Shown in pieces: positions 2,738-53,974 of a stretch of DNA of 64,000 nt. The notes beneath the pieces were generated by a model. The model saw only the letters and a program-made list of their open reading frames with translations, searched no databases and was not told the DNA's origin. The DNA comes from Tetraselmis striata (taxonomy: Eukaryota > Chlorophyta > Chlorodendrophyceae > Chlorodendrales > Chlorodendraceae): the NCBI GenBank assembly GCA_006384855.1, contig VCJN01000108.1, positions 124,001 through 188,000 on the forward strand, in the 5' to 3' direction. Made by a program: the position numbers and the translations under genes. Numbering within the stretch: position 1 is the stretch's first letter; each line of letters begins with the position of its first letter.

Positions 2738-5700
2738 ATGGGAATCTTCGGGAAGACCCAAGTTTCGGCTGATGAGTCGGCCGAAGCCCAGGAGCGGATA
2801 CCCGCACGCAGCGTCAAGGACATCCTTGTCGGCGACTATGACTACAGCTTCCTCTGCATGGTGAGCGGCCTTTCCGTGGAGGATGAGTGGAGGACCATTG
2901 AGCATCTGATGGCGCCGTCGCCCCCAGCGCCTCTGCGTCTATCGTCTCTGCGTGCGGTCGTAGCGTGCACCGTATACCTCAGGGTATGTTGAGACGAAAC
3001 AATAACGTCCTGACAGTTGTATATTTCCATCCAGTAACACACGGGCGGGTGTCGCCTGCAGCATGTCCCGATGTTTGTTATTGGATATTCGATTCGAAGG
3101 ATGTGGAGAAGGAAGGAGGCACAATAAGCACCCGCAGGTCTTCCCAAGGAACCGCAAACCCAGTATCTTCACCGACTGACCGCGAGCGGCCTATCGTGTG
3201 GCGTCACCGGGCGCAGTGAGTCCTCGGACGTGGTTCCGAATCAAAACGTGAGCTCGGATACATGAGCGGCGGTCAGGCTGCTCTTGGGTCGCCGACCACA
3301 ACTCGCTTAAACGCAGTATCGTCGCGCGACCACCACTGCCTCCCACTGCTTGATGATATCATCCATCGCGGAAGAAAGTTTCTGCCCGGGATCGTTCGTT
3401 CGGCACTTTGATTTACGCATGTGACGCCCTGCTGTCCGTGTCGTGTGTGGGAAATGTGACCGAAGGTCGCGGCCGCCATGCCAACTATCCGAGGTGCAAC
3501 CCTGCCTGAGCTTCCCACTGCGTCCCTTTATTGTCACGCGCGGCGATCAGCCGTCCTTCAACCCTTGGAGCAATAAGAAGGGCGCCACTCGGGAGCTGCC
3601 TTTCTACGCCCCCCAAGCGATGCTGCCCGTGCTTCTGTCGGTGGTGATGGGTTTCCAGCACTCGCTGTCCATGGTACGAGTGCCCTGTCGTACTCGTATA
3701 CCATCGTACTGGTATGTATAACATAACTGCGCACCCTCACCCTCAGCCGCTTGCCGAGAGCAGTAGGACTCGGCAGCACCTGGCCGCTGTGTATGAAATG
3801 CCATACTGGATTGTCGTATCATATCTGCTCTGAATGCACGTATCTCTCGACACACGACGACACTGAATACCCCCCCCCCCCCCCCCCCCCCTCCCCGGTT
3901 GCCGGGCCCCAGGTTGGCGGCATCATCACGCCCCCTATTCTCGTGGGAATTGCCGACCAGGTAAATATATCACCCTCCCTACGCGCCTCTGCGCGGCCTA
4001 TCGAAAGCGTACCTGCTGCAGTCGGCGTCTGGTCCGGTGGCAAAGTGTTATTGCTGAACGCGTCGACTGTTCTGTACCGACGGGCAGTCCGAAGGCAAAG
4101 TCTACCAGCAAGCGCTCTTCAGCTATATGGTCTCATCATCATCGGTATCTGCAGCATCCTACAGGTCGGCAGATTGCAACCTCTCTCCCATGCTGCCAAT
4201 TAGCCCCCCCCCCCCCCCCCCACCACACGCACACACGCACACGCGTCACACGCGAATGCCATTGAATCGGCATTATTAAGTTCTTTTGTTCAAATTCAGG
4301 TGGTGCGTGTCAATATCCCCTTTACCAAGTACTACGTTGACAGCGGCCTGCTATCGGTGATGGGCACCTCCTTCACCTTCCTGCCGATTGCACAGCGTGC
4401 GGTGGCTGCCCAGATGACAGATACCAATGACCCCAGGGACTTCCCAACTGCGTTTGGCTCCCTGCTGGGCGTCTCCATGATTGGCAGCTTCGTTGAGATG
4501 GGCATGAGCTTCATCCCTCCCCGGTATCTCCGCAAGATCTTCCCACCATGGATCTCCGGCCTGACCATCTTCCTCATTGGCGCTTCCCTGATCGGCTCCG
4601 GTGTGAAGGTACGGCGCCACTGCTGCCTGACCTCCTCCACCCTGGATGAGCATGCCACAATCGGCGGCATGCTGCCACTGCGCCATTCACCGGGCATGCT
4701 GACAAGTCCCATGCGCGTTCTGCAGGCCTGGGGCGGCGGCACCTTCTGCGCTGATAACCCCGCCTTTGGCTGCGGCGTCGGCGAATCCTCTCTCAAATAC
4801 GGCGCTGCCTCCTTCATCGGGCTCGGGTTCTTCGTTATGGTGATGACCATCGTGCTGGAGCTCTTCGGCTCCCCGTTCCTGCGCAGCTGCCAGGTGGCCA
4901 TCGCGCTGCTGCTGGGGTACCTTCTCGCTGCCACCACTACAGACTACAACGGCGACAAGTACGTCACCACCACAGGTATCGAGAACGCCCCTGCCGTCAC
5001 CTTCCTCTGGGTAAAGAGCTTTCCGATCGGCTTCTACGCACCGGCCCTCCTCCCCGTCCTCATTGGCTTTGTGGTCTCCGGTGTCGAGTCCATTGGCGAC
5101 CTGACCGCCAGTGGCGAGGCACTGGCTTGGACCCAGACTCGGAGGAACAGACCGTGGCGGTTCAGGTAACAGCATTTCTGGTTGACATGCTCATGTGACT
5201 TGCGTTGCTTCCTGATGCGATGGATAGGCTCCGCGAACAAGCATGAACGGGCATGTGTCGCCCTTGTGTGCGGCGCCATCAGGGTGGCCTGCTGGGCGAC
5301 TCGGTGAGCTCCTTCCTCGCCGCCCTCGCCTTCTCCATGCCCAACACCACCTTCTCCCAGAACAACGGCGTCATCTCCCTCACCCGCGTCGCCTCGCGGA
5401 TGGCCGGCATCGGCTGCGCTGTCTGGCTCATCATCTATGGCATCTTCGGCAAGGTCGGCGCGTTCTTCACCAGCATCCCACAGCCCGTGCTGGGCGGCAT
5501 GACCACCTTCTTGTTCGCCAACATCGCCGTGTCCGGCATCAAGGTATGCGCCACCGGCAGCGCTCCCTCGCACAGGCAGCGGATGGGCCATGGAGAACTG
5601 TTGTCCTGCGAGCAATGTGAAAGTGTGTAGCCAGGGAGCTGATGCCACGCGCGGCGGCTCTACAGGTCATCTGCTCCAGGCCTCTGACGCGCCGCATCCG

Positions 5701-8370: not shown

Positions 8371-11300
8371 CTAAGATTGCAGCCGCGGCAGCTCCGCGTC
8401 GTCGCCCGCCTGTTCGTCCGAGACTTTCAGCGAGTCTACTCTGCCATACTCCACCCCATCCGCGGTGGACCGGAAGCTGTGGTGCCGCGATACCGCGCCC
8501 TTGATCCGGGTGAGCGAGGCGTGGAACAGCGACGAGCCAAAGCTGCCGCCTCGCTGCAGGGACGCGCCCACGCGCTCCCACACGGCGCTGCCGCGCCGCC
8601 TCGCCTCGTGCTCCAGCGTCACCTCCTCCAGCGCCGCCTCCTCCCACAGCCACCACTCGTTGCGCCGCATCACCCTGCTGACGCCACGCTTGCCGTAGAA
8701 TGTGGCCAGGCTCATGAGCGACACGCCGTCGCCGTGCGGGCGCGACACGTTCAAGCCGTGTTGCTCTCCCCACAGCAGCAGCGCCGAGACCACGTCCTCG
8801 TGCCCGCGCACGGTGGCCAGGTCGATGGGCACGCGGCCGGCGTTGTTCTTCGCCAGCGCCATCGAGTCCTCCATACCCGCGGCCAGGCTGGCGCGCAGCA
8901 GCGCCAGCACCGCCTCGCAGTGCCCCCGCATCGCGGCGTGGTGCAGCGCCGTGTTGCCCTGGTGGTCGTCCGCCCACAGGGCCGCCGGCCCCACCGCCCC
9001 CAGGAGCGCCTCCAGCACGCTCGAGTGCCCGAAGTGCGCCGCGACGTGCAGCGCCGAGCAGCCGTGGCCGTCGGTCTTGTTCGCCTGCAGCAGACCCGCG
9101 GCGGGTATCGTCGGCCCATCCAAGGCTGTTGACCTCGGCGCGGCCTCCGCCGTGGCGCCGTTGCCTGCGTCGCTGGCATCCGCGTCCCACGCGGGGTCGC
9201 AGCCTCCCAGGTTGTCGTCGGCTTGCGCGTGATCCAAAACCAGCTCCGCGGGCTGCACCGCCTCTAGCAGCGCCCGCACCGCCGGCAGGTGCCCGTGCGC
9301 GGCGGCGAGGTGCAGCGGGGTTTGGCCGCGGGTGTCGGAGAGGTTGAGGTTCACGGCGGCCTCAGGGCCGGGGGGGGGCGCCCAGCGCAGCAGCACGCGC
9401 ACCGCCGCGTGGTTCCCGGCGCGGCAGGCGGCGTGCAGCGGGCTGCGCCCGTTGGCGTCCCTCGCGTTGGCGTCACCCGGCGTGGCCGACAGCGCGGCGG
9501 CGACCTCGTCCGCGTCGCCTGTGGCCGCCGCGCGGTGCAGCGCGGTGGTGAGCGCTGCCGCCGAGGTCGCCGTGGCGCTGCTTCTGCCATCAGTCCTTTC
9601 GTAGCCGCCCGAGGGCTCGACCCCCGGTCGCAGCAGAGTCAGCCCGTGCCGAAGGTGACTGTACGCGGGGTGTGCGCCGTCGCGGTCGCCCGGCACAAAG
9701 GACGAAGGCGGCGTCGATACTTCCGAACAACGCGACAAGTAGCTGAGGCTGCTACCGTCCGTCCACGCGCGCCCGCTCTGCAGCCCGACGGTCGTCGATG
9801 TCATCTGGCGCTGCGGCTGGCGCGCGCGCTTGTCGACCGCCGGAGCCTGGGCCCGGGATTCCTGCTCGACGGCCGTCGAAGGGCGCAAATACTGCCACCG
9901 CCGCATGTTGCGGAAGATCGACCGGGAGCCGTTACGTTCGCACCATCCGCCGACGGCCACCAGCAGCAGCAGCATGCCCAGCCCGCCGCCCGCGATCCCA
10001 AATGTCGTGACGTCGTGCTTCGGCCTGCCGCCCTGGGCCGGTTGTCCCAGGATGTCCGCCATGCCGGGTCGGCGCGCGGGGACGTAGTCGAGCGCACGGG
10101 CGGGACCGGAGGGCGCGCGGCTAACCTGCAGAACGACGTAGTCGCCGTACGCGTCGGCCCGGCACAGCGCGTGGTGCCTGGCCACGCTGTAGGCACGGCC
10201 CCCCTGCTGCTCCTTCACCACCGTCACCACCCGCGCCGGCCCCATCACCACCAGCGCCATCGCGCCGTAATCCACCCGTGCGCAGAATTTGTTGTCCGCG
10301 CGCAGGTCACTCATGCCTGTCTGCAGGTCCAGCGGCAGCTGCGCCTCCAGCACAGGCAGCAGCGGCCCTCCGCCGCCACGGACGCTCAGTACCCCCGACG
10401 CGGTGTGCACAGTGTCGACGTCGGCCAAGGGGAAGGCGGTGCCGGAGGCGATGGCGGCCCGGAAGGCGGCGGTCCCCAACCCCAGCCGCAAGTAGGAGCT
10501 GTCGGCGACGAAGGTGATGCTCACGGCGGTGACGGAGGGCGTGCAGGCGTCGTCGGTGTAGTTGAAGGCGGTATTATTGCAGCCGAGGCCAGTGAAGGCC
10601 CGCAAAGTGGCAAGGGCCGCACTCGGCCGATGGGCGACGCCAGCACTGTCGTCCGTGCCGGCGAGTCCCAACAGCCGACGATGGCGACCCCACAGCCCGC
10701 CGGACGACGTCAGCTCGTCGCTGTCGTCCGAGCCGCCGCCCCCCTCGGCCAGCTGAAGCGGCTCCTCGAGCAGCCCGCCGCCGACGCCGTTATACAGCAG
10801 CATGCGCAGGTCCTCCGTGCCCGTCGTTGTTGGGCTGTCCGACAGCGGCATCGCCTCTAGCTGCGCCGACGACGTCCAGGCCAGCGCATACGTGAGCTGC
10901 CGCAGTGCCGCCTCGCCGCCCTCGTCAGGGCCGAGACTGCCCGCGGTGCCGCCCACCGACACCACCACGGCGGATAGCGCGCCCAACACATCACTTGACA
11001 GTGCCGACACCATCGCCGGGTCGCCGTTTGACGCGCCCATCATGCCCGCCGCCGCGCCTGCAGCGATGGCAAGTTGCATGCCAGCCAGCGCCGGCGCCTC
11101 CTCGGGGGCGGTGGCCAGCGCCAGCTGCCGGAGCACCGACATGCAGGTGCTCAGTTCGGCGCTTGTCGCACCCGGCGCAGTCGCGATGTCGAGCACCGCG
11201 CCCAGGACCGCCTCCTTCGACAGGGCCGCCGAGCCCTGGGCGCTCTGCTCGGCATCATCGCTCGCCGCCGCAATGTGCTCGGCCGCGATAGTCGCCGTCT

Positions 11301-11709
11301 GCAGCCGGAGCCTGGGCGTTTGCAGCGCGGTGGCTAGCACGGCAGGCGTGAATATGGTGTAGTGTGGCGGGCGGACCACCGCCACGTCACGCTGCGTGCA
11401 CGCTTGCGACGTGACCACCTCGACACCCGGGAGCACTCTCACGGCGCACAGCTGCACGGTGGTCAAGTTCCCGTTGGCCGGGTCCCCGGGCGGCAGCGAC
11501 GTCAGCTGAAACTCCAGGGTCGCCAGCAGCCCTGACGCCCAGGTCACTCCGCCATCTGCGCAGCCATACTCGGCGCACACCCCGTAGCGGTAGCGCAGCT
11601 CCGGGTCGGGCGTCTCGCCGGCATTAGCGGCGCCGGACTCGCTAGCCCATGCGTACGCAGACGCTCGGAACGTGGTCTCGCCCCCTGACCAGCCAGAGCT
11701 GGGGCTCAC
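8371..11709 (-). other. Last receptor exon: REJ-like end, TM helix, ankyrin repeats
   Basis: A 3.3-kb uninterrupted exon. Its N-terminal part continues the REJ-like ectodomain (an LEFQLTSLPPGD strand, scattered Cys, NNT/NYT glycosylation sites). A hydrophobic helix follows (TTFGIAGGGLGMLLLLVAVG, about 9,960-10,010), with a basic stretch after it, placing the C-terminus in the cytoplasm. The tail holds about five to six ankyrin units with GRSPLHAACRAG, GQTPLHLAAAHG, GCSALHVAAHFG and GNTALHHAAMRG, then a degenerate unit and a Ser-rich end. Confidence 0.88.
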
Positions 11710-13108
11710 CTGCGCAACCCCCGCGCAAGAACGGTCAGTTCTCGGCGGTGGCGACGGAACGAGTAAATCGAAGCGCTATACACCGGGCTTTGTTATAATC
11801 CTTGTACTCCAAATATACGTTTGGATATGTTGCGGGTCGGAACGACGTCCGTGATGGCAAACGTCGGAACGACATCCACGATGGCAAAACCAACCTCGAA
11901 GCAAGCCCCGTCCGGGTCGGTGCAGCGCGGCGCCGTGTCCACAGCGATCGTGCGCTCCAACACCGCCACCGCCACCGCCACCGCCGTGGTGCTGTCCACC
12001 AGCCGCGCCTGGAACGAGTGGCTGCGCGCCAGCTGAAGCGCAGCGGGCGACAAGACGAGGCGCCACCCGTCGGCGCCCGGGACGGCATACTCGTCGGGAA
12101 ACGGCAGGCTGGCGTCTCCCCAGCTCCACTGCACCTCCACATCCTGCTCGGAAACGCCCTCGGGGGCGATGACCTGCATTATTGCCATAATAATTGTCAG
12201 CTCGCGCTCGCTACGAGTAGCGGCGCCCATCATACATCAGCCAACGTTGTATATACCTACCCGTATATATCTGTTATACTCGTACATTTTTTAACAGGTC
12301 CAGGTACCCCGTATGCATATAGAGATATCAACATACTATTAATGAAACATTATTAAATGCCTAATACACAGATGAACAGTCCATGTCAGTGAAAAAGAAT
12401 GCGATTGTGCACTGTCAGCTGCCAAGGAGGGGTAGCGCCGTATGAAGGCACCAAAAGCCCGTGATTCCGACCGCGCCGCATACCTGCAGTTCCAGGTACT
12501 GCTCCGGGTTGACTCGGCGCTCCGGGTGCAAGCAGGCGGCGCCAACACAGCCCACTCGTATGTCGCCCTCCGGCGGCGCCGCCGCCACCTCCACAGTACG
12601 CAATGCCACCGCAGACTGCCCCCCTTCACGGATGGTCACCTGCCACGGAGCAGTAACACGTACAGCCGCTCAGGTGGCGCACACTCTCACACCCCCAGCG
12701 CTAGATGGGGTGACTGTTGCCGGACAACCTTCCATTGCTGAAGACTCTGCTGGGATACACGGGGAAGGCAGACACCATGGCCCAGACTGATATGCTTTGA
12801 ACCGCAAACCGATCTGGGTGGAATGGCCTAGCAGCCCATGCAAAAGCTCACACTCACCAGTGTACTCATGTGCAGAATCATACATACATACATGGAAGAA
12901 GCCGAGTGGCCGGGTTTCCCACTGGGACTGTTTCCTACTGACCTTGCTAGAGAAACAAAGAAAACTTCTGCCCTGGAATCCGCAAAAAGCACCTCCGCCA
13001 CTTGGTCGATAAAATGCGTACTACAAGCGGACGTAATGTACATGCATGATTTCGCATAGTTACTGTCACGCAGACCCCGGAATGTATGCTCACATTCCAT
13101 ACATACAT

Positions 13109-13158
<50 letters not shown>

Positions 13159-16100
13159 TCACACACACACACTATATATGTATATATATAATGATGATGT
13201 TATTAACGACACACACGATTTCACATTTTAGTAGTCGCTACTTGTTGTCGCTAAAACGCTCCGCCGCTCAGAAAAATGGGGGAGGGAAACAGAGTAGGAA
13301 TCCGAAATCGGAGCCGCACGCTACCGCATATAGAAGTATATGCAATAATATGCATAGTGGTAGAAGTATACATAGTGGTACAAGTACACAAACATGGTAC
13401 ATAGTACATGTATATATAAATCATGTATCTAGGTAATGTATACATATACATATACACAGGTACATACTATGTGTAACATATACAGGTACATATATGCGTG
13501 CAAATAGGTGTATATACTCACACAGACACAACGCTCTATGGTATGGGGGCGCCGGCACGTGTACACCCCGTACAGTGATCAAGCAATGCCCGTCTGGTCT
13601 AGCATATTGCTAGCAACCCGTCACATCCCCTTGGTACATGTAGTACCCGAGCATCATCAGGAAAGTACCCTCCGGCATAGCAAGTTATCGCCGGATGTCA
13701 TTATTTTTGGCGGGCCATCGCATCGACGTGGGACTGCATTAGCGCTGGCTCACTGCACAGCTACGAGAACGCAGGCGGGTGCTCATACCGTGAATGTGTA
13801 CACCCCCGGGTCTATGGCATCGCGGGGTATGACGAGGGTGGGGCTGTTGTCCAGCGGGGGCAAGCCGCAGCTAGTGGCCGGCGCAGCGGGGCCGCCCGTG
13901 GCACAGCTCCATGCGTAGGAGGCCGCTGCGGCGGAGTCCCAGCCCGGGCCGACCCGAAGGGCGTCCAACCGGAAGCTGCTGCCGGCGGGCACGGATGACG
14001 ACCCTGTGAGGTCTGCCTTGAGGTCGCCATCGGGGGTGGGGAGTGGGGGTGGAGGTGGGGGGTGGGGGGAAGATGGGAGTGAGGTCGTTGGGGTCAGGGT
14101 GGCGGGGACGGGGGTGGTGCGCAGGTCGGGGGGCGCCGTTGTTGTTGCGGGCTCGGTTGGGCTGGGGTCGGGGAATGGGGTGGGGATGGGGGTAGCTGTG
14201 GTGGGAGCCGTCGTGGGGGCGGCCGTAGGAAGCGTCGTGGGGGCGGCTGTATTTGGAGGTGGCGTGGAAGCTGTGGTGATGCTGCTGGGCGTGGGCGTGG
14301 GCGTGGGCGTGGCTGTGGGGACTGGCGTGGTGGTGGCTTGTCCAGTGGGCGTCACAGGGCTCCCCCTTGTCAGCGCGGGGGTGCTTGTGACTGTGGGCGT
14401 TGGCTCGTCACCGGAATCCGCCTCCGCCGTAGGAGTGACTGTCGCCACGGCGCTCTCCGGCATTGTCGTGGATGTGGTGGGAGGCAGCTCTACGGTGGCG
14501 GTGGCCTCTGGGGTAGCGGTGGGCGTTGCTGTGGACGGCATGAGTGTAGCGGTGGCAGTGGCGGTGGCGGTGGCGGTGGGGGTGGGGGTGGGGGTGGCAG
14601 TGGCGGTGGCGGTGGCAGTGGGGCTGGCGGTCGGGGTGGGGGTGGGGGTGACGGTGATGGCGGGCGTGGAGGTAGGGGATGGGATGTCAGTGACTGCGTG
14701 TGGAGTTGCGGTAGCGGTCATGGCGGGGAGCGGGGTGGGGCGTGGGGTTGGTTGTTGTCGGGGTGGGGGTGGCCGGGGTTGGAGCGGAGGTGGGGTTAGG
14801 TGGGTCGAGGGGGGGCTGAGAGGGGGCGGGAGGTGGAGGGTACTGGGGAGGCGGCGGCGGGGGGCTTGGCGGTGGTAGCGGCGGCGGCGAGTTGGGGGGC
14901 GGACTTGGAGGGGGACTGGGCGGGGTGTTTGGAGGCGGACTCGGAGGGCTTGGATGGTGGAGGGCTAGATGGTGGGGGCCTTGGGCGAGGGGCTTGGTGG
15001 CGGGGGGCTTGGCGGTGGAGGGCTAGATGGCGGGGGGCTTGGTGGCGGGGGGCTTGGCGGAGGTGGGCTTGGCGGAGGTGGGCTTGGCGGAGGTGGGCTA
15101 GGTGGAGGGGGGCTCGGTGGCGGAGGGTTCGGTGGCGGGGGGCTAGGTGGCGGAGGGCTCGGTGGCGGAGGGCTAGGTGGCGGAGGGCTCGGTGGCGGAG
15201 GGCTCAGTGGCGGTGGGCTTGGCGGAGGTGGGCTAGGCGGCGGGGGCCTTGGTGGCGGGGGGCTTGGTGGTGGGGGGCTAGGTGGTGGGGGGCTTGGTGG
15301 TGGGGGCAACATGGGGCATCCGTCCGTCTGCGGAGTGTCCACCGAGTTGGGAGCAGACCTGTGCAGCAGCGTCATGTGCACACATTGCAAGCTTCAGCCG
15401 GCAACATTTCACGCGACTATTTGTTGTGTGGGCGACAACATGGCAATGTTCTATTAGCGGCATCTCGGAGTGTAGGTAATCCGCTTTGACAGCTACCTGT
15501 CAAATAGGTGCCAGGACTGAAATTCGGATGACCGTTGAAATCCCAGCGGGAGCCCAAATATGCACAGCGTTCCCGAACTGCCGATACGTTGTTCTCGTAC
15601 GGTGCGCGCAGTGTTCGTGTACGAGTAGCGACTACACGGTACTGCCGTAAGTACTACAACACAACGAATCAAATCAAAAGTGGACGGTACCTGGGTACCC
15701 GCAGACCTCCATAAAAGCTGGTAAAAAATATTATTCCAGACCGAATACAATAATGCATATCTGATGTAGTCGTCCGGTTTCCGACAGTCCTCGGGTATTC
15801 ATCCCCACATGCACTGTGTAGCATACTACTTGTGATGTAGAGACCATAATTGTATAAATAACCGTGGTATGATAGGTATGAGTGGCTCCTCAAGCAAAAC
15901 CGGAGGAGGTTCCCGGGCCGATCGAACCCAACGACACAATGTGCCCCCGCCCATTAATTCGACGGAGGTCGACAGGTGCTGGTAATGGTACTTTTACCGC
16001 CATGTGGCGAAATATATCTTTTAGTGGTACTCGGATTTGATGTAGTGGCGTAGTGCAGCAAGTACTAAAAGCGCTTCGCGGCGAATACAAGGAAAGCGCC

Positions 16101-17975
16101 ATACCGCCGTGTGATACGCCGTGATGATGCACTCACACGTATGCCAAGCATGTGTATATGGACTCTGCCGCCTAATTTATATTTTCAGCAGGAAAAATGT
16201 GCTAACGTGCTAATACACTAATATGCTAAGCTGGCAGCCTTTCAGGAAACTTATAGTTTCGATGCCCGTTGTGGCGCGTTGCTTTCAGGTGGCTTGTAAT
16301 CAAGCCACGATAAATGGTAGTGGTTTTAGGTGGGTTTCAGGCTTTTAGGTGCTGTAGTCGATCGAAAGCGGCATCGAGACAGTGTAGGCGGGGCAGCAGG
16401 CGCAGCGGAAACTGCAAACTCACCAGACATCCTCTGGGATCCCGCCGGTCAGGCAGTTGCCGTCCAGAAACCTGCACACCACGGAGGCGGATGTCAAACC
16501 CTGTGGCCGCGCAGATCCTGCGTGGTCAGGGCACAGTTCGCTACGGAGCGCCTTGAGTCAGGTGGTTGGGGGCATAGCGGATAGGGTGGTATGTTGGTGT
16601 TGGGAGAGGGGGGGGGCGGGGGGGGGGGGGGGGGGGGGGCTGCACGTACACATCCGTCAGGGAGATCATTTCCGACCATTCCGCAGGCACGGTCCCGACG
16701 AGCCGGTTGCTCGCCAGGTTGCTGCCGCCGAGGGGGGGGGGGCGGGGGGGGGCGCATCACATCAGCGCTTTACATCGCGGCAAAGCTCAAGCAAAGCCCC
16801 AGCCCATTGGATGGATGCTACACAGTCGCCACCATCAATCACAAGAGGGAGCTCACATGTCCTCCAGCAAATTCATCTCGGAATACTGCACCGGGAGAAT
16901 ACCAGACAGCATGTTGCTCTCCAGGTCACTGTGGCGCCAGCACAGATCAGCGTTTCAGCGCCATGAGCGCACAGGAAGAGGGAGTGAACACGACGCAGGG
17001 GCAAAGGCACCAGGAAGGAGCACTCACATACTCTTCAGAGCGGTCATCTCAGACCACTCCGGCGGCAACGTTCCGGTGATGTTGCTCCCCGGGATGATAC
17101 TGTTCGACGAAGAGAGGCGGGGGTCAGGCGGGGGCGGCGGGGCAATGGCGAGCCTGCTGCCGGCATCCCTCTCCTCAACTCGCCTATGTAGCTGCCTGTT
17201 AGACGCGGATCCCACCACAACTCTGCTTCCCCATAGCAGGGACGGTAAAGAGGAAGAGGATAGGAGTGTGTGTGTGTGTGTGTGTGAGAGAGAAAGAGAG
17301 AGAGAGAGAGAGAGTTGAGTGTGAGGGAATGGGGCGGAGGGGTGGGGCGGGGGAAGTTGGGGGGGGGGGGGGGGGGGGGGTTGCTGAGCGCTTACAGCGC
17401 CTCCAGGGCCGTCATCAGCGACATTTCCGGCGGCAGCGTGCCCTGGATCACGCCAGGGTGGAGGCTCCTGTGTCGGTGGGGACGCACATTGCCATTTCAA
17501 GAGGGGTGCCTGCCATCAGTCTGAAGGACCTGGCATGCACATGCAGACGCCAAAGAACGGATGCGGCAATGATGCTTTGCGGCGTACATGTACTGGAGGG
17601 CATGGAGGGCGGACACGTCCGCTGGAATCGGTCCGCCGAGGCCGGGAATATCAGGGCTGGATGCCATGTCACTGCGCGCAGCATCACACATGCCGGCAGG
17701 GCGAGTAAGGGAGTCAGCAGGCAGTGCCTTCGCCGCTTGAGCGTAGCGCTCGTGTTAACGCGCCCCCCCCCCCCCCCCCCCCGCCCCCCCCATTGGTTGC
17801 TTGGAATTCATACATGGGGCGGGAAGCAGTTTCACAACTCACATGGAGACGATGTGGACGCCGGAGCATGTCACGAGGTAGCAGTTGCAGCAGCCGATGC
17901 AGTCATCGTTCTCCCAGGTGCCGTCAGTGAAGCCGGGCGCCACGCTGTACTTGTATTGCAGCAGGGCCGCATGCT
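8371..17975 (-). CDS. Putative receptor: LRR, PPSP/TP-rich stalk, REJ-like, TM, ankyrin (5' exon missing)
   Basis: Multi-exon gene read leftwards. Exons by eye: 17975-17843, 17671-17588, 17467-17396, 17099-17028, 16928-16857, 16721-16650, 16471-16424, 15358-13789, 12639-12484, 12173-11895, 11709-8371 (stop TAG). Intron phases agree at every junction: phase 2 from the first listed exon through the LRR block into the Pro-rich exon, then phase 0 to the end. The product so far is about 1,965 residues. Order: LRR N-terminal cap, six LRR-type units, PPSPPPP block, TP/TA-rich mucin-like stalk, REJ-like beta domains, one transmembrane helix, cytoplasmic ankyrin repeats. This looks like a surface protein that couples extracellular recognition to an intracellular ankyrin scaffold. 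The exon for the start codon and signal peptide was not found upstream of 17975. No polycystin-type channel and no GPS cleavage motif are visible. I know no named family with this order. Confidence 0.75.
13108..13172. repeat. (AC)n microsatellite
   Basis: About 25 CA units, slightly interrupted, within the intron between the 13789 and 12639 exons of the receptor. It is followed by a TATATA patch. Confidence 0.95.
13789..15358 (-). other. PPSPPPP and TP-rich stalk plus first REJ-like segment
   Basis: A single exon. After the phrase WSAPNSVDTPQTDGCPM it runs into PPSPPPP repeats, then a long Thr-Pro/Thr-Ala region (mucin-like, likely O-glycosylated). It ends in a beta domain with YAWSC...C and a GVYTFTV strand end, typical of REJ/polycystin ectodomains. 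The Pro-rich part holds an in-frame TAG at 14965-14967. From about 14965 to 14725 the Pro-rich frame is a different one, then the original frame resumes at MTATATPHAV. The exon length is compatible with one frame throughout, so this looks like two compensating single-base shifts. No GT donor exists nearby to make an intron. Confidence 0.7.
15884..15975 (-). mobile_element. Possible diverged SINE-like copy
   Basis: The reverse strand contains GGGTTCGATCGG, a partial match to a pol III B-box. A related stretch occurs at about 63893-63975 (shared words GGTTCCC, GGCCGATC, TGCCCCCG). Too short and diverged for a firm call. It sits in an intron of the receptor. Confidence 0.25.
16424..17975 (-). 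other. LRR ectodomain block of the receptor (seven exons)
   Basis: The first visible exon encodes an LRRNT_2-like cap: ALLQYKY, then W and paired cysteines (CIGCCNCYLVTC). Six LRR units follow. Four are on exons of exactly 72 nt (24 codons), the classic plant LRR unit, each splitting a codon after its second base. Repeats read GTLPPEMS, GTLPPEWSEM, GILPVQYSEM and GTVPAEWSEM, and the final short 48-nt exon reads LTGGIPEDVW. This is the plant-specific LRR consensus (LxGxIPxE) of receptor-like proteins. Poly(G) runs at 16619-16640 and 17361-17380 and a poly(C) run at 17763-17782 lie in the introns. Confidence 0.85.
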
Positions 17976-19624
17976 CTGCGCGCAGACACATACCACAGGC
18001 CATTAGAGCGGCGCGGCTGGTACCTAGGTGACTTATTTAGTACCGGTTTGCGTACACCTATACCCGTCTCACAGGTACAGTGCCCACCCATTTTCATTTC
18101 ATTTACCTCCCGCTGTTCGACGTTAAACTCATCAGTCTGGTACTTAATGGCAAAAATAAAAAAACATATTGCCAATTGCCGACCACCCGCATAAAACTAG
18201 TGCCGACTCGAGTACACTGGTGTAGGGCTCAAATTGGAGCAACTTATTTGAGCGACTACTACTTATTTCGAATACACTCCAGTTCTCTGGGGGAGAATTA
18301 TATGCGACGTATAGCCCCGCTACATAAAGAAGACCAGGAGAGCAGGACCGCTAATAGGTCGGTACTATTTAGTATCTACGAGGTATGCATCGAGGTACTC
18401 TTGAGGTACTATCAACGAGATTGCTGCAATCAGTCAATGATGGGCTGTGTGTTTTCTTGCATATCCAACACATGGCGACTTTAGTTGCTCCAAGAGTCAC
18501 ATCACATCGCTAGCAGATATTCAGTAGGCTATTAGCTGTTAGCCACCGCCGTACGGTACGAGTAACGGCAGGCTGCAGTGCTTGTACTATTCGCGCCCGT
18601 AATGGGATGTATGATGTTCACTGCATGCTGCGTGTTTGTCCGACCCCCCGCCCCCCACCCCTCCCCCTGTCGTACCTTGCTTTCATCAGATTCTTCCCTG
18701 TGTAAAGCCCATGTTGGATACAGGAGAAAGGAGAAATAGCCCTTTCTCCTGAGCTCACTGCCTCAGGGAGAAATATTGTGCAAATACTGCATTCGTACTG
18801 GAGAAGTAGCACCGGAGAAGTAGCAAGTTGGATTTAGAAATCGCGATTTCTCCCGAATCCCAGAGAATCGGAGCCGCTGCAGTAGGCAAGTTGGCTGCTT
18901 TAGATAGACCCGCCCCGCCAACATTTATGGCGGTCTCCGCCCCGCCTCACGCCAATCAGCTACGTCCACAAATGCATGTGACCCACTGGCTAGGGGAATA
19001 GGGCTGCGTGGGCTGAATCGGGGCAAGGAGGGGCGGTGCGCGATGAAAGCAAGCTGGTTGTGGCAGATGAGTCAAGACCCGTCGCTTAGTATTAAGTCAA
19101 CGGGTCCGGTCGACTTTGGGGGGGGGGGGGGGGGGGGGGTAAGGCTGCGGCGGCTACGCATCCTCCGCCGCGCCTGGGTGGGGGCGTGGGGCTGGCATTG
19201 TCAGCCAGTCGGATTGTGCTTGGCGCCTCTACGACGCGCCGACGGCGAACGCCAGGAAGCGCACGGCACAATGTGGGAAGTAAGTTAAACATGATGTACT
19301 AGGTTGCTATTTCTCCCGTGGGAGAAACACTTCTCCAGCTAGAAATGGGCCCTTTTCCCGGTCTCACGGCCTTTCTACTACAGCGGGAAAAGTACTGGTT
19401 CTGGTACCTGCTTGCAGCGATTTCTCCTTCTGGCATTTCTGCCTTTAGCAATGGCGACTATATAATATTGTTCTGAACTAGTTTAAGTGGTGTCTCTCAC
19501 TATGGGATAGCCCTGGCGCGGCGCCCGTAGCGCGCGTGTGTGCCCGCATGTATAGAGGGACCAGTCAGGGCCACCACCTGCCTTCTCGTTTTAGGCGAGA
19601 AGTGAGTAATGGGCGCTAATACAT

Positions 19625-19766: not shown

Positions 19767-22210
19767 ACACGTACTAGCGATACCCGTACTCGTACCACGT
19801 AATCCTGACCCATTATCCTGGGCAATAAAATAGTCGCTAATAATATGGGGCGCGATACATACTATTACCGGTACGGCGGAGATACCTATATATATGGATC
19901 GGGTCATATTTAATATAGTACGGCCATACCGGTCGCTGGATCAGACGAACGTCTACCGCAAGGAGCAGTAGTCGCTATCTCCATTTCTCCCGCCCCCAGG
20001 ACAGGACTGCCATCAGTGAAACCCGGGGTAACCCTTCATGCAGCGTCTTCGACGGCCGTTTAGGCAGCGAGTACCAAAAAATGATCTTCGCGCGCACGCC
20101 AAGTAACTATAAATAAAACCTCGTACCATCATGAATGCCGCAAATATGTGGTAGGGATTTTCCAAATGAAGGCTCTGATGAAGCATTGATACAGTTACTT
20201 TGCACTGGCGGGGCCGATGTGACTTTTACCTGTACCTGAAATGATCTAAACGGGTTATATGGGGTTTCCTCGTCCAGACTCGTCGTGACCGTTTATTGAA
20301 ATTTGACGTATTTTGGATTGTCTGCCATTAAGGATTATCGGACAACCAAAGTTTAGATTGCGGTATATTTACTCGTACCAACACGACAACAATTAGCTAC
20401 ACCCCGTAAAACACAGCCCCTGGGTGCACTTTGGAGCGGCAGAAGTGCCGGTGATGATGTGCCCTTATTCTCCACTTGGAGCTACGGGGTTTTGTGTTCA
20501 ATGAATGGGCCCTACTACAGTAAAGACATAACGTACTATGATGGTCATGGTGGCGGAGTGCGCCTTGCGCGCGATGCCAACATCGCCACATACGTCACTG
20601 GCTCACCTTCCCCAATACTTTTAATATGTGACAGCTGCATGGGTCCCAGAGGACCTCTCCTGCGCTGCTGTGGGTATCTGGCTGGGGCTTCAGTGCTCAT
20701 ACTTTAAGCCTTGATAACAAAATGTACACGCGTACAAAATTTGGTTCGCGCGTACTGGACTACGAGTAGACGGGCAGGTAGCGACTATATGGACGAGCAC
20801 TGGCAATAAACTATCAATAAAATAGATACCTAGCCGGGATTAAGCGTAAGGGTACCCGGGTAGCCGCTACCGGTATTCATTGCAGCATAATAATTCGTCC
20901 CTACTGGTGGTAGCGACTACTGCATTCATTGCACAATAATTCACAGCAGCAAGCCCTGCCCCCGGCCGGGCCGGTGCTAGCAATAGTGCACATACATACC
21001 CACCGCCGATTCTCGTTTCCGGTGTTGGTGATACACTCCTACATAGCGACAAAGGATTACATGTCCGAATCTGCGGGTTACTGTCAGCACGCGCGAGGGT
21101 CGTACGGGTACTAAGGATTTATTACTCCGTACTGCTACTGGTCGGTGGCACTTGCCGCTGGTCGTTCCTGTCCCAGCATCAGTCGCTAGGAAAGAAAGAA
21201 AGAAAGAAACACCCGCCTGTGCTGTATCACAGCCATCGGACCACATGCTGCAGCAGCAATATAATACAGCAGCACCATAAAGCAGAACGCGCGCTCGTCT
21301 CTCGTCCCTGTCGCATAGTGATTCGCGCTATGTAGTGTACCCTGTACAGGTATTATGGATTTATTCACGGTTAGCAAAGCAGGCGGAATTGTAACGTCGG
21401 GTAACACCCGTCGTACTTAGCCCCTTTGCTGCAATTCAAACCTCTATAATTCTCAATATATATGACCATAAAATCGCGCGCCGAGAAATATATATGTATG
21501 TGTATGTGTATGTGTATGTAGCGACTTCTCGTGCCGACGTACTACTTCCTAATACCTGCTACTGCTGTAGTTGCTGCCGTACTGTCGAAAGAATATTACC
21601 CGGCGGCGCGTTTTTTGTTGTTAAATATTATGCGTACGAATTTTACTGTACGCGTACGGGTACGGGTATCCTCGTAGTGGTATAATATGATGATTACATG
21701 AGCTAGACGCAACATTCAAGAAATAATGCTGGTAGTATAATAGTAAATGGTATAATATACACACCCCGAGTAGTGTCCCTGCCGCGCGAGCAGCATCAGC
21801 ATTACCGCCCCCCGGTAGTGTAGTACTGGTACGGGCACGTAGGTACGGGTTGCTGCAATTATTTCGCGCGCGACGACGGCCACCGTGCTCGGCCCGCCGC
21901 GCCCCTCCCCGCCTCTCCGGCGCAGGATTCGGGGCACCACGACCAACGCAGCCGTGCCCGTACCTGCTGGGTCGATGGGGATGCACTTGGGCTCTGCACC
22001 AAGTAAGAGACTGCATAAAAATAGACATGCGAGAACCGGTCCAGTGCGGCGTGGTTGTCTTCCAGAGGCAGGCGAAATCCAATGAGGTATCATCACTGCG
22101 ATGGTGCGAAGAGCGGCCTCGTGCGAGCTGAAGATACTCGTGCCCGCGAAGTGCGCAGTACGGCAGTAGCGTTGGCGTCAAGCGCAATGATTGCGAGTAG
22201 CGGGCAGCAA

Positions 22211-25280: not shown

Positions 25281-27106
25281 ATGTCCGACAGTGACTCGAG
25301 GGCGGTGTCGCCTTTACCCCCCGGTATACACTCACCTGGCGGTACTCCTCTCCTGCGGACTACCACAGGAGGAGGGCCTGGTGTGAGGAGCAGTGGACGC
25401 AGCGGAAGACGTGGTGGTCGTAGTAGTGACGTTGCCACCGGCGACGAGCCGGGAGGGGGGGGGGGGGGGGGTCGAATCTTCACAGCCATAAAGGAACTCC
25501 AAGCATTGGAATGGATCAGTCACGACTTAGGGAAGAGGTCCAATGGCATCGCACCTGTGTCGATGACAAGTGCGGTCAACTCGAGTCCAAACTGGACACA
25601 CCTGCAGCAACTCGCCGAGTTGCTCCGACCACCGGTGGTAGCGGGCATCAGACTTTAACACCCGCTCAGGTGGAGTCGGCGCGCCGGGCTTCAGTGCGGC
25701 GAGCCCGAGGTGACACTTCAGTCCTCTCTCGCGAGAAACTGGAATTTCCCAAGCTGACCAAGGCCATGCCGATGTCGTCTTGGACATCCCTCGCTATCTC
25801 GTGGTTCGGTATCAAAGCACCCAAGCTGCTTTACCAGGCTACAGGTACCCTCTCGTCCGGACATCACGAAGTCGATGGTGTACTGCAGGTTGAGCTCTTT
25901 AACCTACTCATGTTGAGCATGAGCTCGTCTACGCAGGGCATGGATGCACTTGCACTAGTCGATGTGAATGCGCCTAACCGAGGAGCTCTGGCATGGCAAG
26001 CATTGCACGACAAGCTGAACATATACTCGGTGGCTCGCAGCATTGACATTGGCAGTCGACTTACCGACAAGTATGATCCGAACGCAGGTCAAAGCGTCGG
26101 AGATTTCATCCAAGGCAAACGCCAGCTGTGGCACAAGCTCAACGAGTCGGTTACCGGTTTGATGCCACCCGGCCAACACTGTATTTCCGATCATTTTCTC
26201 GGGATTATACTGCTTGGGTGCCTACCGAGTGACCACCCAGTATTAGGCATGTGCAAACGCGCAGTACTCACCGGTGCTGATGGCGTTCGGACACTACTCG
26301 AGTCTCGTGTGGTCGAAGAGCAACTGCTTGTTCAGATAGACAATTCCGGCTTTGATCATACGGGTCGACAGCGATCGGACTCGCGTACGACCATGGAGCC
26401 AGCGCAACCACAAGCATTTTTGGCTAACAAGTTTCGGAAGCGTGTTAGCCCCTTCGCCGGTAGATGTTCCTGGTGTGGTTCCAAGAATCACCGAGGTCCC
26501 GACTGCAAGGCGTCGGATGGCGAACAGTTGGCATGGAACAAGGAGAGGAAGAGTATCCTTAACGTCAAGCCGAAGCTTCCCACCGGTGGCGCAACGGCTC
26601 ATCTCACCGCCTTAACCGAGGGTTCCACCGAGCCTACATCTGACGAGGAGGACGATCCGGTTGAGGGATCAGACCTCGACGAGGTACGTATCTCTAGCGC
26701 ATCTACCTCTATTGTCGGCAGCAATCTAGTGGCCGGCAGCGATCAGCCTTCCACTGCTAGTACTAAACCTGTGGCGCCTGAACCGACCGCTCTAATGGCA
26801 TCGATTTGTTCTGCGTCACCACGACAGGGTCGTTGGGGCATTATGGATGGGGGTTGCAATATCAGTTGCAATGCATACCGATCCAAGTTGAAATCCATTC
26901 GGAAGCTCAACCGTTCCGTCGCCGTTGGAGGGGTTGATGTGCCTATCGAGGGCATTGGTACGGTGTTGTTGAAGCGGCATTCCCCCTTTTACCACAGGTT
27001 ATGCATTTTTGGATATCACCACACTCTACACTCATGCTCTGTTGTCCAAGAATGGCTGTGGCAGGTTACTCAGCCAGTCATGGATGCAACGCCACCGTGG
27101 CTGTGA
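25281..27106 (+). pseudogene. copia gag and start of protease
   Basis: Likely start ATG at 25281 (MSDSDSRAV). The frame changes near 25508, after a poly(G) run, into the long frame from 25511. Gag shows the UBN2-like helical region and a CCHC zinc knuckle CSWCGSKNHRGPDC (CX2CX4HX4C). Further on the aspartic protease site reads WGIMDGGCN where DSG or DTG is usual. Near 26990 the frame moves again and homology continues in the frame that starts at 27009. Confidence 0.85.
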
Positions 27107-28124: not shown

Positions 28125-28613
28125 CGTCTATAACTCACCGCCGTTTGGAATCCGAAGAGGACTCCGATGGGGAATCAGATGTGCCAGTGCTCCCGGATGC
28201 ATCCCCAGATGAGTTAGATTCAGCGGGGGATACGGAGCCAGCACTTGGGAGGGCACCTGGAGATGCTGCACCTGACATACCGGTGCGAGATCGGCGCCCG
28301 CCTATGCGAATTCGCGATCAGTTTCAAGCTATGCTATCTGATGCTCGGGATGACAAAGCAATGATTGCTGAGCCACACCTGTCGAAGGGGCAATATGGTT
28401 GAACTCTTGGCCGCCAGTGGCGTACTTGAACCAACCACCTACAAAGAGGCAGTCAGTGGTCCCAACGCCAAGGAGTGGATGCAAGCAAAGGCATAGCCAA
28501 AGAGTTCAGTGCTCAAGTGGCTAATTGCACATGGGACGTAGATATGGTGGCACTTCCACCCGACAGAAAAGCGGTCACTTGCAAGTGGGTGTTTAAAGTC
28601 AAACCTGACTCTA

Positions 28614-29447
28614 ATGGCGAGGTTGCTTAAGTCAACCAAAGCCAGACTTGTGGCTAAGGGTTGCAGTCAGAAGGCCGGTATTGACTTCACAGAGACATTC
28701 TCACCTGTGATTAGACATGCCAGTCTCTGGGTTATGCTCACAATCGCTGTTGCCCTGAACATGGAACTATACCAACTAGATGTGGACACGGCGTTCCTCC
28801 ATTCCGATTTGGATGAAGAGGTATACATGCGCCAACCTGAGGGATTCCATGATGGCGCAAAGCGGGTACTCAGACTGAGCAAGTCGTTGTATGGCCTCAA
28901 GCAATCCCCTCGGAATTGGAACAAACTGGTCAGTGGGTGGCTGCTACATACCGGGTGGAAGCAGTGCAGTAAAGATCCATATATGTACTACTGCTATCAA
29001 GATGGAGTACTTTCTATGTTGGGGCTGTACGTGGATGATATGCCCTTTGCGTCGACCTCTGTGGAGTGGGCTACCCACTTCAAGCAACAGATCAGTCAGC
29101 GCTTCCAAATTACCGTCACGGATTTGCAGTGGCTTCTGGGCATGCACATTGCCAAGGACAGAGCCAACCGGACTATCACCATGGATCAGTCCAAATGCAT
29201 TGGTGGCATTCTTCGTCAGTTTGGAATGGAGGACTGCTACCCCTATGCACTCCCCATGGACACTGACTACAAGAATCACCTTCCTGATTTAGCGCCGCCG
29301 TCACCTGCACTTGGAGTGGAGGGTCGTGAAACTTACCGGTCCTTGATGGGCAGCCTCCTATATGTCGGTTGCAACACCAGACATGATATCAGTGTTGCTC
29401 TCAGCATTCTGGGCCAGGTGCAGAAGCACCATGTCAGATGCACCTAG
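28614..29447 (+). pseudogene. copia reverse transcriptase
   Basis: Conserved copia RT: KARLVAKGCSQKAGIDFTETFSPV, then LYQLDVDTAFLHSDLDEEVYM, SLYGLKQSPRNW and the catalytic LYVDDM box, then the connection domain. It opens in frame at 28614; the upstream linker (28115-28610) is split over other frames. It runs out at a stop after HHVRCT, where the RNase H part resumes in another frame. Confidence 0.92.
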
Positions 29448-36736: not shown

Positions 36737-37906
36737 ATTTCAAAGTTGAGTCTGGTTTTGCCAGTCTGGAGCGAACGGAGAGAGCGGTGGATTGACGGAG
36801 AAGAGGTAGCGCCAAGTCATGAAGGAGGCACTGGGAAGGCCACCGCTGCGGAGTCCTGTTGGACTTGGAAGTGGCGGAGGGGGCGATGTGTCCAAAGAAG
36901 AACCATGCGCCAGGTGAAGGAAGAACGTTGGGGTCGATGTAGTCCAGAACGACGTCAGAGTTAGTGGCCCAACCGCCTTGGTAGCGAATGTGGGACAATG
37001 GCACTCCGATGGCGTTTGCTGCAGAAGCTGCGCCCTTGAGAAGACTGTGTGAAGTCCAGAAAGTGCCAGCAGGGGGGGCAGCGTTGACTAGACTGATGGC
37101 TGCAGACGGCCAGTCTGACATTGTAGCCGCAGTCCAAGGTTTTGACTGCTCGGCCGCAGTGACAGCCCAGAAGTTTGATGTAGCCAAGCCAACAATAACC
37201 AGGGGGACAGATTGGACGTTGTCGATGAAGTGGTGCAAGAGACGTGCCACTCGAGGGTGCTCGGACACCGAAAGGAGAAGTACGCGCAGGTCGTCGGGTC
37301 CCCGTCGGCCAGCGCGACCTCGCGGTACACTTGCAGGGTGATGTTGTAGTCGTCGACATGCACGTCTCGCACTCGACAAGACACGCCAGTAAGGCCCCTG
37401 GCAAAGAACATAAAGTTGACAACCGAGGCGAGGAGGGCCCGGAAGTTGTGGTGGTACTCTGGGTAGGGAGCAGACACAATCAGCTCGGCCTTTGTGACGA
37501 AGCGGTAAGCCACATCCGCAGGCAGAGGGACACGCAAAGGGGCAGCGTCCAGTCGGCGCTGACGCAGCATCAGCCCATGCCTTGCTGCCGTTAAGTGCAG
37601 GCTGTCCTTGGCGATTGGGTCGAGGTTGTGCAGCTCGAAGAACGTGTTGATCGCAGACAGGTAAGGTTGCAGTGACTTAGCGGCGATGTGCCCCCGCTCG
37701 CCGATCCAGGCAACGTACCGAACGACAGTCGCAGTAGTCGCCTCCAGCGGGCTGATGTTCTCGGAGTCGTGACAGAACTCCGCGAACTGAGACAGCCGGC
37801 CGGCATAGCTCTTGAGTGTCTGAGCGCTGAGGGAGCTGGAGAGTAGGTCGAGCGTCCGCTGGCCCAGCTCGTCTGAGCCGAACGCGTCCTGCAGCCGAGC
37901 TCGCAA
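36735..37906 (-). pseudogene. Tyrosine recombinase of the split-repeat element
   Basis: N-terminal SAM-like half: SLSAQTLKSYAGRLSQF and LQPYLSAINTFFELHNL, then the first catalytic Arg region MFFARGLTGVS. A frame change near 37270 moves the C-terminal half to another frame, with SHSLLKGAASAANAIGV, RYQGGWATNSD and LDYI (nucleophile Tyr). The second catalytic Arg (HxxR) appears as Leu (HSLLKG), predicting loss of activity. The frame stays open upstream of the first Met to about 38100, so the true start is unclear. Confidence 0.8.
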
Positions 37907-38484
37907 TGAAGCAGCCCAGGGAGCGACAGCTTCGGGCTCGTCAATTACGTAAGTGCGTCGTTTTACTGACAGAGTTCCACCGGTACGACTACTGTTCGCA
38001 AAGTACTCGGCAGCAGCAGTTAGATTCCCGGCGGTTGGCTGGTAGCTGCTGGACAGGTTTGCAGTAGCATCGGTACGGGTTTGCGGGGCTAGGTTCAGGT
38101 AAGAGGGCCGCCCTGCGCGCCCTTTGCGCTCGTAGCGCCTGTCTCACGCGTAACGTACCCGCGCGAAACTTGGTCGTTGCGAACCAGTTGTAACACGTAG
38201 TGTAACAACCGACGGACGCAGTGGTGGAATGGTACGGGAGGCGGTTAGTTGAGCCGCCATGTGCAGGTGTGCGGATGGTTGAGCCGCACTCGGCTGTAGG
38301 TGTGAGAAGCGCCGCACCGAGGAAGGTCTAAAGGAAGTCTGTAAAGTGGGGGGGGGGGGGGGGGGTCAGGCCCTAACACGGGGCGCTCATCTCGCCGTTG
38401 AGCTGCAAGGGTGCGTCTTGCGGCGGTCACCGAAAGGTGGCCTCGCAAAGCTCCAGCAGCTCCGACGAAAGGCGCCCCACACCG

Positions 38485-39372
38485 TCAATCGTGCTCACCT
38501 TCGCGGCCACGCCCACGTCCACCGCCACATCCTCGCCCACGCCCGCGACCGGCAGCTGCAGCCGCCACTCGAGAAGTAGCGGTTGCTTTCGCGCTGCTGG
38601 CAACGGTCGCCTCGAAGACACGGCGCTCGTAGTCCCGCATGAGGTCCCCAAAGATCGCGGAACCCAGATGCTGCGAAGCAGGCTGAAAATGCTGGGCTCG
38701 CAGCACATCCAGAACACCTTGGTCACCGTGCACACGCTTGATCTCATTTAGCCTCCGCAGGAAGGCCAAACGAAACCGAAACGCCTTGTCGATGGCCTCG
38801 GCGTGGTTCCGAGCTCTCGCGAGGTAGGGGATGAAGTCCTGGTTGGTGGCAGGGACGTAGGGCAGTAGCTCGTCGAGAGCCACGAAAAGCGCGGCCATGT
38901 GGGCCCCGAAACACGACATCCACAAATACTCCTCATGGGCCGGCAGACGCCGGTTATCCTGCTTGAGGTACTCGTTCGTTAGGTCGGTGCTCAAGGGAAA
39001 GAGTCCAGGCACTCGGCTGACCGGTCGAACGGCCTCATAACCAGACTCTGCTCTCTGCAGTAATTCTGGCACCGCGAGGTAGTCATCCTCGGCACTCACG
39101 GATTTTGCTCCGACACGGCCGCTCTAGGCTAGCTCTAGCAAGTCGGGGCGCTCTGCGGCTCCCCCGCTGCCTGTCGGCTGTCCCGCGATGCGCTGCCCGG
39201 AGCGAGAGCCATGTGCCCCTTCTCCATCAACAACACGCTCACGAGCCGTCAATTGAGCTACAGCCGTAGCCAATGCACGCACATATGCTTGCAACGACTT
39301 GAGTGTCGGCTCGGCGACGGGTTCTTCTCCATCTGACATAGTAACGCACGGGCGTACGGACGAGAATATCAC
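38485..39372 (-). pseudogene. gag-like protein of the split-repeat element
   Basis: Starts near 39372 (or the internal TMSDGEEPV Met). It contains a helical segment with an in-frame TAG at 39124-39126, then a long helical region (EEYLWMSCFGAHMAALFVAL, FRLRLAFLRRLNEI-like), and ends in an RGRGRG-rich basic tail, as in DIRS/PAT gag proteins. It is upstream of and collinear with the recombinase. Confidence 0.55.
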
Positions 39373-53345: not shown

Positions 53346-53974
53346 GAAGGGGGGGGGGGGGGGGGGCAAGTTATGCATGTTGTTTTGCAGCATCAAGTTG
53401 GTAAGGTGGCATGCCTTTTCAGCTCTAATGCCTATTGAGGTACTGACCGGTGTTCTTCTCTTTAGTCGGGAGAATTAGTGTATCGCCAAAGCATGGCCAC
53501 GTACGAGGGACGGCATCTCGGGGTACGCTTTAGGGTGCGGCTTCCTCCAGCGCAGGATGCGGAGGCCCCTCGGTGGGGGTGCATCAAAAGGGGGGGGGGG
53601 GGGGGGGGGGGGAGGGGCACCTCGTCCAGCAGCTCGTACGCGATGACAAAGTTGTCGCGCAGCGACTCCTCCTCCAGCTCGGTGAAGTACTGCGTGAAGA
53701 CGTCCACGATGCGGTGCAGGAAGAGCAGGTTGGCGGCGCAGTTGACGTTGCCCTTGGTGACGGACATGAGGTACAGGTTGGTGTGCTGCACGTAGGTGTA
53801 CGTCACGCCCTCGCCCTCGTCGTGGATGACCGGCGCCAGCGTGCCCGCATCCTCCAGCTCGTGCATCTTGGCCAGGAACTTCTCCGCCACCTTGGTGGGC
53901 ACGTCGCCACGGTAGTCGCGCGACAGCACCACGCGCCCCTTCATGTCCAGGATGAACAGCGCCGAGCTCGCCAT
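49259..53974 (-). CDS. AP-1 complex subunit mu (clathrin adaptor medium chain)
   Basis: Exons, read leftwards: 53974-53621, 52489-52409, 51387-51310, 50990-50850, 50426-50187, 49648-49259 (stop TGA). Every intron is phase 0, giving 427 residues, the usual length. The N-terminal longin-like domain starts MASSALFILDMKGRVVLSRDYRG. The linker RPPMAVTNAVSWRSEGLRYKKNE leads into the mu-homology domain (EVFLDVVESVNLLVNSNG, SGMPECKLGLNDK, FDNDRTISFIPPDG). The end is YFTVSGIQVRYLKVVEKSGY..PWVRYIT, diagnostic of mu1 rather than mu2-4. It sorts YxxPhi cargo at the trans-Golgi network and endosomes as part of the AP-1 heterotetramer. Long poly(G) tracts on the plus strand (poly(C) in the pre-mRNA) fill the introns, several directly behind donors. 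Confidence 0.96.
53317..53344. repeat. (GT)n microsatellite followed by poly(G)
   Basis: About 14 GT units then, after TTGAA, a run of about 17 G, within the first intron of the AP-1 mu gene. Confidence 0.9.

Follow-up and report, generated by a model that had tools for sequence, protein, structure and literature searches.

A family of predicted LRR-REJ-ankyrin membrane proteins in the green alga Tetraselmis striata

We analysed a 64,000-nucleotide stretch of the Tetraselmis striata genome (contig VCJN01000108.1, here C80:124001-188000 of a 224-Mb genome in 2,903 contigs), hereafter called the window, which carries on its minus strand a gene predicted to encode a single-pass membrane protein. 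From the N-terminus, the predicted product features leucine-rich repeats (LRR), a proline-rich stalk, a REJ domain, one membrane helix and an ankyrin tail, which is the order that the original prediction, made from the sequence alone, had assigned to one gene. Eleven exons, spanning 17975-8371, are joined by GT-AG junctions throughout, the joined frame is open across each of them, and the same order is found at four other copies in the genome. The original prediction had described the exons as phase-consistent, which holds for all junctions and fails inside the stalk exon, where the sole stop of the joined 11-exon frame is located, accompanied by two frame changes. When a new first exon is included, the gene consists of 12 exons and the predicted protein is approximately 2,000 residues in length.

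The gene probably starts at position 22093, outside the interval 8371..17975 to which it had been confined. Candidate first exons were required to feature an upstream ATG and a phase-1 donor and were ranked by hydrophobicity. The top candidate, exon 1 (21964..22093), encodes a signal-peptide-like stretch and the first part of an LRR N-cap (..KCIPIDPA), and is separated by an intron of 3,988 bases from exon 2 (17843..17975). The latter encodes the remainder of the N-cap (EHAALLQYKYS..CIGCCNCYLVTCSG) and has homologous exons at four paralogous places, named here after their contigs C2763, C2385, C1246 and C1502. The assignment of exon 1 is supported by similar exons that the same search ranked first at C2763/C2385 (..SQTCVVLVPT) and at C1246 (..LACTPIETT), each ending in G. 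The phase was a condition of the search; the cysteine and the similar ends were not. At C1502, the search upstream of the N-cap exon yielded no convincing candidate. A start inside the N-cap exon (MACGMCLRAEH..) was also considered and is disfavoured, given the signal-peptide-like upstream exon at two other loci.

The LRR region is encoded by six short exons, all of which are entered in phase 2. Exon 3 (17588..17671) measures 84 nt, exons 4 to 7 (17396..17467, 17028..17099, 16857..16928 and 16650..16721) measure 72 nt each, and exon 8 (16424..16471), which carries a last partial LRR (FLDGNCLTGGIPEDVW), measures 48 nt. The repeats exceed the Pfam cut-off for both LRR_1 (35.1 bits) and LRR_8 (34.0 bits). 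Among the best 60 of the 267 PDB sequences matched at E up to 1, those closest to the LRR part are the plant LRR receptor kinases GSO1, FLS2 and TDR, and entries for LRX2 and pollen LRX1 are found among the matches of the LRR-SPPPP half. The head can thus be classified as plant-type, as originally proposed, and the proposed 72-nt exons are present. The plant-type N-cap fared less well: LRRNT_2 scores 14.5 bits, below the cut-off of 20.7, and is detected solely with exon 1 joined, there being no LRRNT_2 match for the window cap alone or for the C1246 and C2763 caps. A strict pattern describing 72-nt phase-2 LRR exons was scanned along four of the five copies (the window, C2763, C1246 and C1502, leaving out C2385). 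It matched twice in the window (exons 6 and 7), eight times in C2763, twice in C1246 and once in C1502, always within LRR intervals; neither the remainder of the scanned stretches, on either strand, nor any of 20 shuffles of the window yielded a match. The head by itself is unremarkable, as the genome contains many LRR sequences that match it (at least 117 at E up to 0.001); what sets the gene apart is the joining of this head to the stalk and REJ. As judged from these exons, the head appears to vary in exon number among copies while the output part is kept, which would amount to a variable head on a kept output. Long runs of G or C are present in the LRR introns and upstream of them (approximately 16602-16655, 17350-17404, 17763-17792 and 19118-19163), and assembly errors are likely there.

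Exon 9 (13789..15358) encodes an SPPPP stalk, a Thr/Pro stalk and the start of REJ. In C2763 and C2385, the LRR part and the Thr-rich stalk are separated by approximately 300 residues that have no Pfam match and were not seen in the window copy. Exons 10 (12484..12639) and 11 (11895..12173), both in phase 0 and both with homologous exons in the paralogs, continue REJ. Exon 12 (8371..11709), with 1,112 codons, encodes the REJ end, a post-REJ module, the membrane helix, a cytosolic linker and the ankyrin tail, up to the stop. A profile search, which had been named beforehand as able to refute the architecture, detected REJ (PF02010) at 32.5 bits and E 4.8e-8 (cut-off 25), in a match spanning four exons. 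Where several REJ-like domains had been envisaged, one match exceeds the cut-off, and the remainder is a conserved module without Pfam match in any of five module sequences. In this module (10117..11373), the segment 11373-10669 is helix-like by eye and the segment 10584-10117 is the most conserved. When the 790 residues that run from REJ up to the membrane were compared with the PDB, a sugar transporter was the sole match at E up to 1 (E 0.33), and it is taken as chance.

The single membrane helix that had been predicted, FGIAGGGLGMLLLLVAVGGW (9943..10002), has a strong helix score in the window copy; in the paralogs, the helix was assigned by eye. The helix is followed by the residues CERNGSRSIFRNMRRWQYLR, the basic character of which fits a cytosolic location of the ankyrin side. 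Ankyrin repeats (8767..9555) match Ank_2 at E 7e-33 and 113.5 bits (cut-off 27.3), bearing out the predicted ankyrin tail. Pfam matches of the last exon at E up to 1 belong solely to ankyrin families and include no kinase, in line with the kinase-free output of the original prediction, and no PLAT or channel homology; there is one strong helix, not eleven. The C-terminal part carries a family motif, VSRP..ATFxGxRxV..WWxW (8641..8748), with 13 invariant columns across four sequences. When the genome was searched with the window tail at E up to 1, five candidates were found, all five of which are family copies.

The paralogs were recovered from both ends of the protein. In a search with the ankyrin tail, which returned 150 matches, C2763 (48% identity), C2385 (50%), C1502 and C1246 (44%) outrank many ordinary ankyrin matches. 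The ectodomain retrieved the same four contigs and then, more weakly, C2854, C2422, C155 and C1363. In all four paralogs, N-cap, LRR, stalk, REJ exons, membrane helix (by eye) and ankyrin repeats lie on the same strand in the order of the window, and REJ exons bordered by AG and GT can be aligned over their full length with their counterparts in the window gene. Phase was imposed in the exon searches (1 for exon 1, 0 for REJ, 2 for LRR), so that phase agreement is partly built in, and LRR matches were accepted at E up to 0.1 against 78 kb. C2763 and C2385 are near-identical, with 20 synonymous and 23 non-synonymous differences (dN 0.008, dS 0.020), and are probably two haplotypes of one locus; the family is accordingly counted as four gene loci represented by five copies. 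Between the window copy and C2763, dN is 0.51 and dS 0.92, values that come from a simple method with dS near 1 and that indicate moderate constraint at most. Identities between distinct paralogs, which leave out C1502 (as do the dN and dS values) and for which the C1246 ankyrin part lacks its second exon, are highest in the conserved part of the post-REJ module (50-60%), REJ (34-53%) and the ankyrin region (35-52%). They amount to 33-44% in the first part of the module, 25-36% in the linker and membrane helix, and 15-29% in the cytosolic linker.

REJ is not restricted to this family. An exon-by-exon search of the genome, which for this reason missed the five family copies, detected 11 REJ matches on nine contigs, and none of 14 control genomes had a match. 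C1363/C155 and C2854/C2422 encode another class of REJ protein with the same post-REJ module. In the open frame of C1363, the module is succeeded by a Thr/Pro linker and another stretch, then by a single helix judged by eye to span the membrane, and lastly by a short tail. A Pfam scan of four partial segments of these loci matched no LRR or ankyrin family. REJ scores are strong in C2854, C2422 and C1363 (91.6-104.3 bits). A profile of the window, C2763, C2385 and C1246 sequences aligned with a profile of these three over 647 columns, with 99.95% probability and E 2.3e-38; 20 column-shuffled controls did no better than 0.9% and E 0.062. The comparison does not include C1502, and the C1363 row consists of two open frames joined across a gap. 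Because the shared 647 columns take in the post-REJ module, REJ and the module are, at the sequence level, one unit in this genome. REJ is also present in the brown alga Ectocarpus (PMC4700764). The ectodomain had been described as animal-type; REJ need not be a borrowed animal part, given that a brown alga and nine further contigs of the present genome also carry it. Pattern searches for relatives elsewhere returned 592 matches in genome_contigs and 43 in viral_contigs, neither of which is a eukaryote collection, and none was confirmed.

Other features of the window include a xanthine/uracil permease exon (4204-5166, plus strand), a Copia-type reverse transcriptase (RVT_2; 28542-29444, plus strand) next to a long frame without Pfam match (25430-27103), and a clathrin adaptor small-chain-type exon (53465-54010, minus strand). 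The interval 37091-39123 on the minus strand contains a frame with an integrase-type SAM domain (PF02899) and an adjoining frame, 38488-39123, with a near copy upstream of the C2385 paralog; this is probably a mobile element. No Rfam match reached the gathering score within the window. A 167-residue light-harvesting protein piece of the genome matches chlorophyll a-b binding and LHCII chains in PDB (best 60 of 78, E up to 1e-60), in line with a green-lineage host. The top match is a 620-residue chain, LHCI-2, and the Chlamydomonas structures 7d0j and 6kac are among the next. The pherophorin family (PF12499), looked for as a sign of volvocine origin, had no match in the genome, and the control was likewise without match.

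Among the closest known plans is that of polycystin-1, which features LRR, REJ, a GAIN domain with a GPS cleavage site, and eleven membrane helices (PMC9672506, PMC2781793). Its REJ module combines a fibronectin-like fold with GAIN, and its LRR and lectin parts bind matrix components (PMC9672506). The window protein resembles polycystin-1 in the succession of N-terminal LRR, REJ, membrane-proximal module and membrane (PMC9672506, PMC2781793). It differs in having one helix instead of eleven, no GPS found, and no PLAT, lectin or channel match, and it adds an ankyrin tail and 72-nt exons that encode one LRR each. The sea urchin proteins SpREJ1, 8 and 9 share with it a REJ ectodomain and one predicted membrane helix; in contrast, GPS is reported for them, and the available text of the source does not contain the words LRR, leucine or ankyrin (PMC1934368). 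Since sea urchin members with one helix exist, the eleven-helix feature is not strict for the PKD1 family. Plant LRR-extensins (LRX/PEX) likewise feature a signal peptide and LRR followed by an SPPPP-type part, and in the available text of one survey none were found in four algal genomes (PMC4769139). The window protein falls outside LRX, as described in that text, since LRX proteins end in the extensin part, whereas it continues with REJ, the membrane helix and ankyrin repeats. Plant LRR receptor kinases and receptor-like proteins share the plant-type LRR ectodomain and one membrane helix. Unlike the LRR receptor kinases, the window protein lacks a kinase, features stalk and REJ between LRR and membrane, and ends in an ankyrin tail. 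Plant ANKTM proteins, likened here by description and not by sequence, are membrane proteins with ankyrin repeats (PMC9353636). Within the genome, the C2854/C2422 and C1363/C155 proteins share REJ and the post-REJ module, and differ in that the scanned pieces have no LRR or ankyrin match. No protein of this domain order was found in the titles, abstracts and passages searched, which is weak evidence of novelty, as most subscription journals were not covered. The order looks new, as had been proposed, although the combination of LRR with REJ is already known from polycystin-1 and the protein looks kin to the REJ/polycystin-1 plan.

We consider it about an even chance that the product of the gene is a sensor or adhesion receptor at the cell surface, crossing the membrane once, in which an LRR head on a wall-like stalk is coupled via REJ to an ankyrin tail. 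Domains, their order, gene structure, the five copies, the one membrane helix and the common tail motif can be read directly from the sequence; surface location, glycosylation, ligand binding, force sensing and docking are inferences. At the tip, the head would bind a ligand, which might be another cell, a polysaccharide or a glycoprotein of the wall. The stalk, with its Pro/Ser and Thr/Pro parts, is expected to be glycosylated and rich in hydroxyproline and would hold the head out across the wall or matrix. The membrane-proximal, force-bearing part would be formed by REJ and the post-REJ module, which are placed like REJ and GAIN in polycystin-1 and lack a recognisable GPS cleavage site. The ankyrin tail and its C-terminal WWxW cap might dock a cytosolic partner, and outside binding or tension would be relayed inward without a kinase. 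The pattern of identities between paralogs is consistent with such a sensor or receptor: the conserved part of the post-REJ module, REJ and the ankyrin region are best kept, whereas linkers and helix (15-36%) are less so.

Several observations argue against this assignment. Pfam scores REJ in C2763 at 20.9 bits, below the cut-off of 25, and does not match it in C1246, but the profile that includes both aligns with the strong REJ proteins of the genome at E 2.3e-38, as described above. Neither Pfam nor a PDB profile search detected GAIN or GPS in the module sequences; the PDB search returned seven entries at E up to 10, none of which is named GAIN. HL[T/S] does not occur between REJ and the membrane in the window protein or from REJ onward in four family proteins, and the GPS family has no match in the genome, the control being likewise without match. 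No GPS of the kind that in PKD1/polycystin-1 proteins precedes the first membrane helix was thus seen. A role at the wall is a guess from the stalk, and the head could equally bind a gamete or microbial ligand. The stalk exon itself is interrupted. The frame entering from exon 8 hits a TAG at 14967-14965, and the Pro/Ser/Thr-rich frame shifts near 15.0 kb and is regained at about 14.73 kb, leaving an out-of-frame Pro-rich stretch at approximately 14955-14730. Downstream, REJ resumes in the frame that enters from exon 8. A misassembly, a real break and an unseen intron are all possible.

A real break would suggest that the window copy is a decaying allele and that its relatives alone work, which we regard as quite improbable. 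In keeping with decay, no near-identical second copy is present among the matches listed, in which the best other identity is 66% over 74 residues. Against decay, the remaining exons are uninterrupted and flanked by GT-AG borders, the last one comprising 1,112 codons, and the breaks fall in a GC-rich repeat, a likely site of assembly errors. Moreover, 38 formal GT-AG introns could bridge the stop, which lowers the odds of decay. All of them begin no further than 49 bases into exon 9, and each would delete most or all of the SPPPP stalk; the three GT that precede the stop (15358, 15342 and 15310) do not fit a GT[AG].G donor. The interruption lies between the LRR and REJ-ankyrin blocks of the window, as would be expected if a secreted LRR-stalk protein and a REJ-ankyrin receptor were encoded by adjacent genes. 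This reading is rejected, and we give it very little weight, because exon 9 encodes both the Thr/Pro stalk and the start of REJ, and because each of the five copies has the same order. In addition, exon 8 joins the stalk exon in frame, and single open frames of 822 (C2763) and 834 (C2385) codons cover the Thr-rich stalk and the first REJ piece.

Two further alternatives concern the ligand, and we regard either as unlikely. As a gamete-recognition receptor, the protein would recognise the coat of a partner cell, as sea urchin REJ proteins do, and its ankyrin tail would trigger gamete activation. REJ proteins function in sea urchin fertilisation, and a REJ protein of Ectocarpus, picked for its expression in male gametes, is under positive selection (PMC4700764). 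The 28 PKD-channel matches in the T. striata genome could be partners of such a receptor. Against a gamete role, REJ and the same module also occur in another protein class of this genome, and dN/dS between copies is below 1, as estimated by a simple method with dS near 1. Plant immunity is served by kinase-free LRR receptor proteins, which speaks for an immune-type receptor that varies its ligand binding by duplicating and shuffling exons of one LRR each. The exon plan points in the same direction, as one LRR per 72-nt phase-2 exon, in numbers that differ between copies, is also found in the candidate immune ROCO genes of brown algae (PMC11378527). Such a role fits less well with the only four gene loci among the matches listed and with a head that sits on a wall-like stalk.

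A broader view may be put forward, tentatively and with somewhat less than even confidence: green algae may possess kinase-free receptors for wall or cell recognition built on the polycystin-1 plan, in which the channel half is replaced by an ankyrin output and the head is diversified by gain and loss of one-LRR exons. In this one alga, at least two classes of protein carry REJ but have no channel part. Chlorophyte receptor kinases are few, approximately 1 to 4 (PMC10868138), and how these algae sense walls, partners and microbes at their surface is consequently an open question. This small family, with its common ectodomain plan and tail motif, provides a concrete candidate for a surface-sensing system, the output of which may be reached via the partner of the tail.

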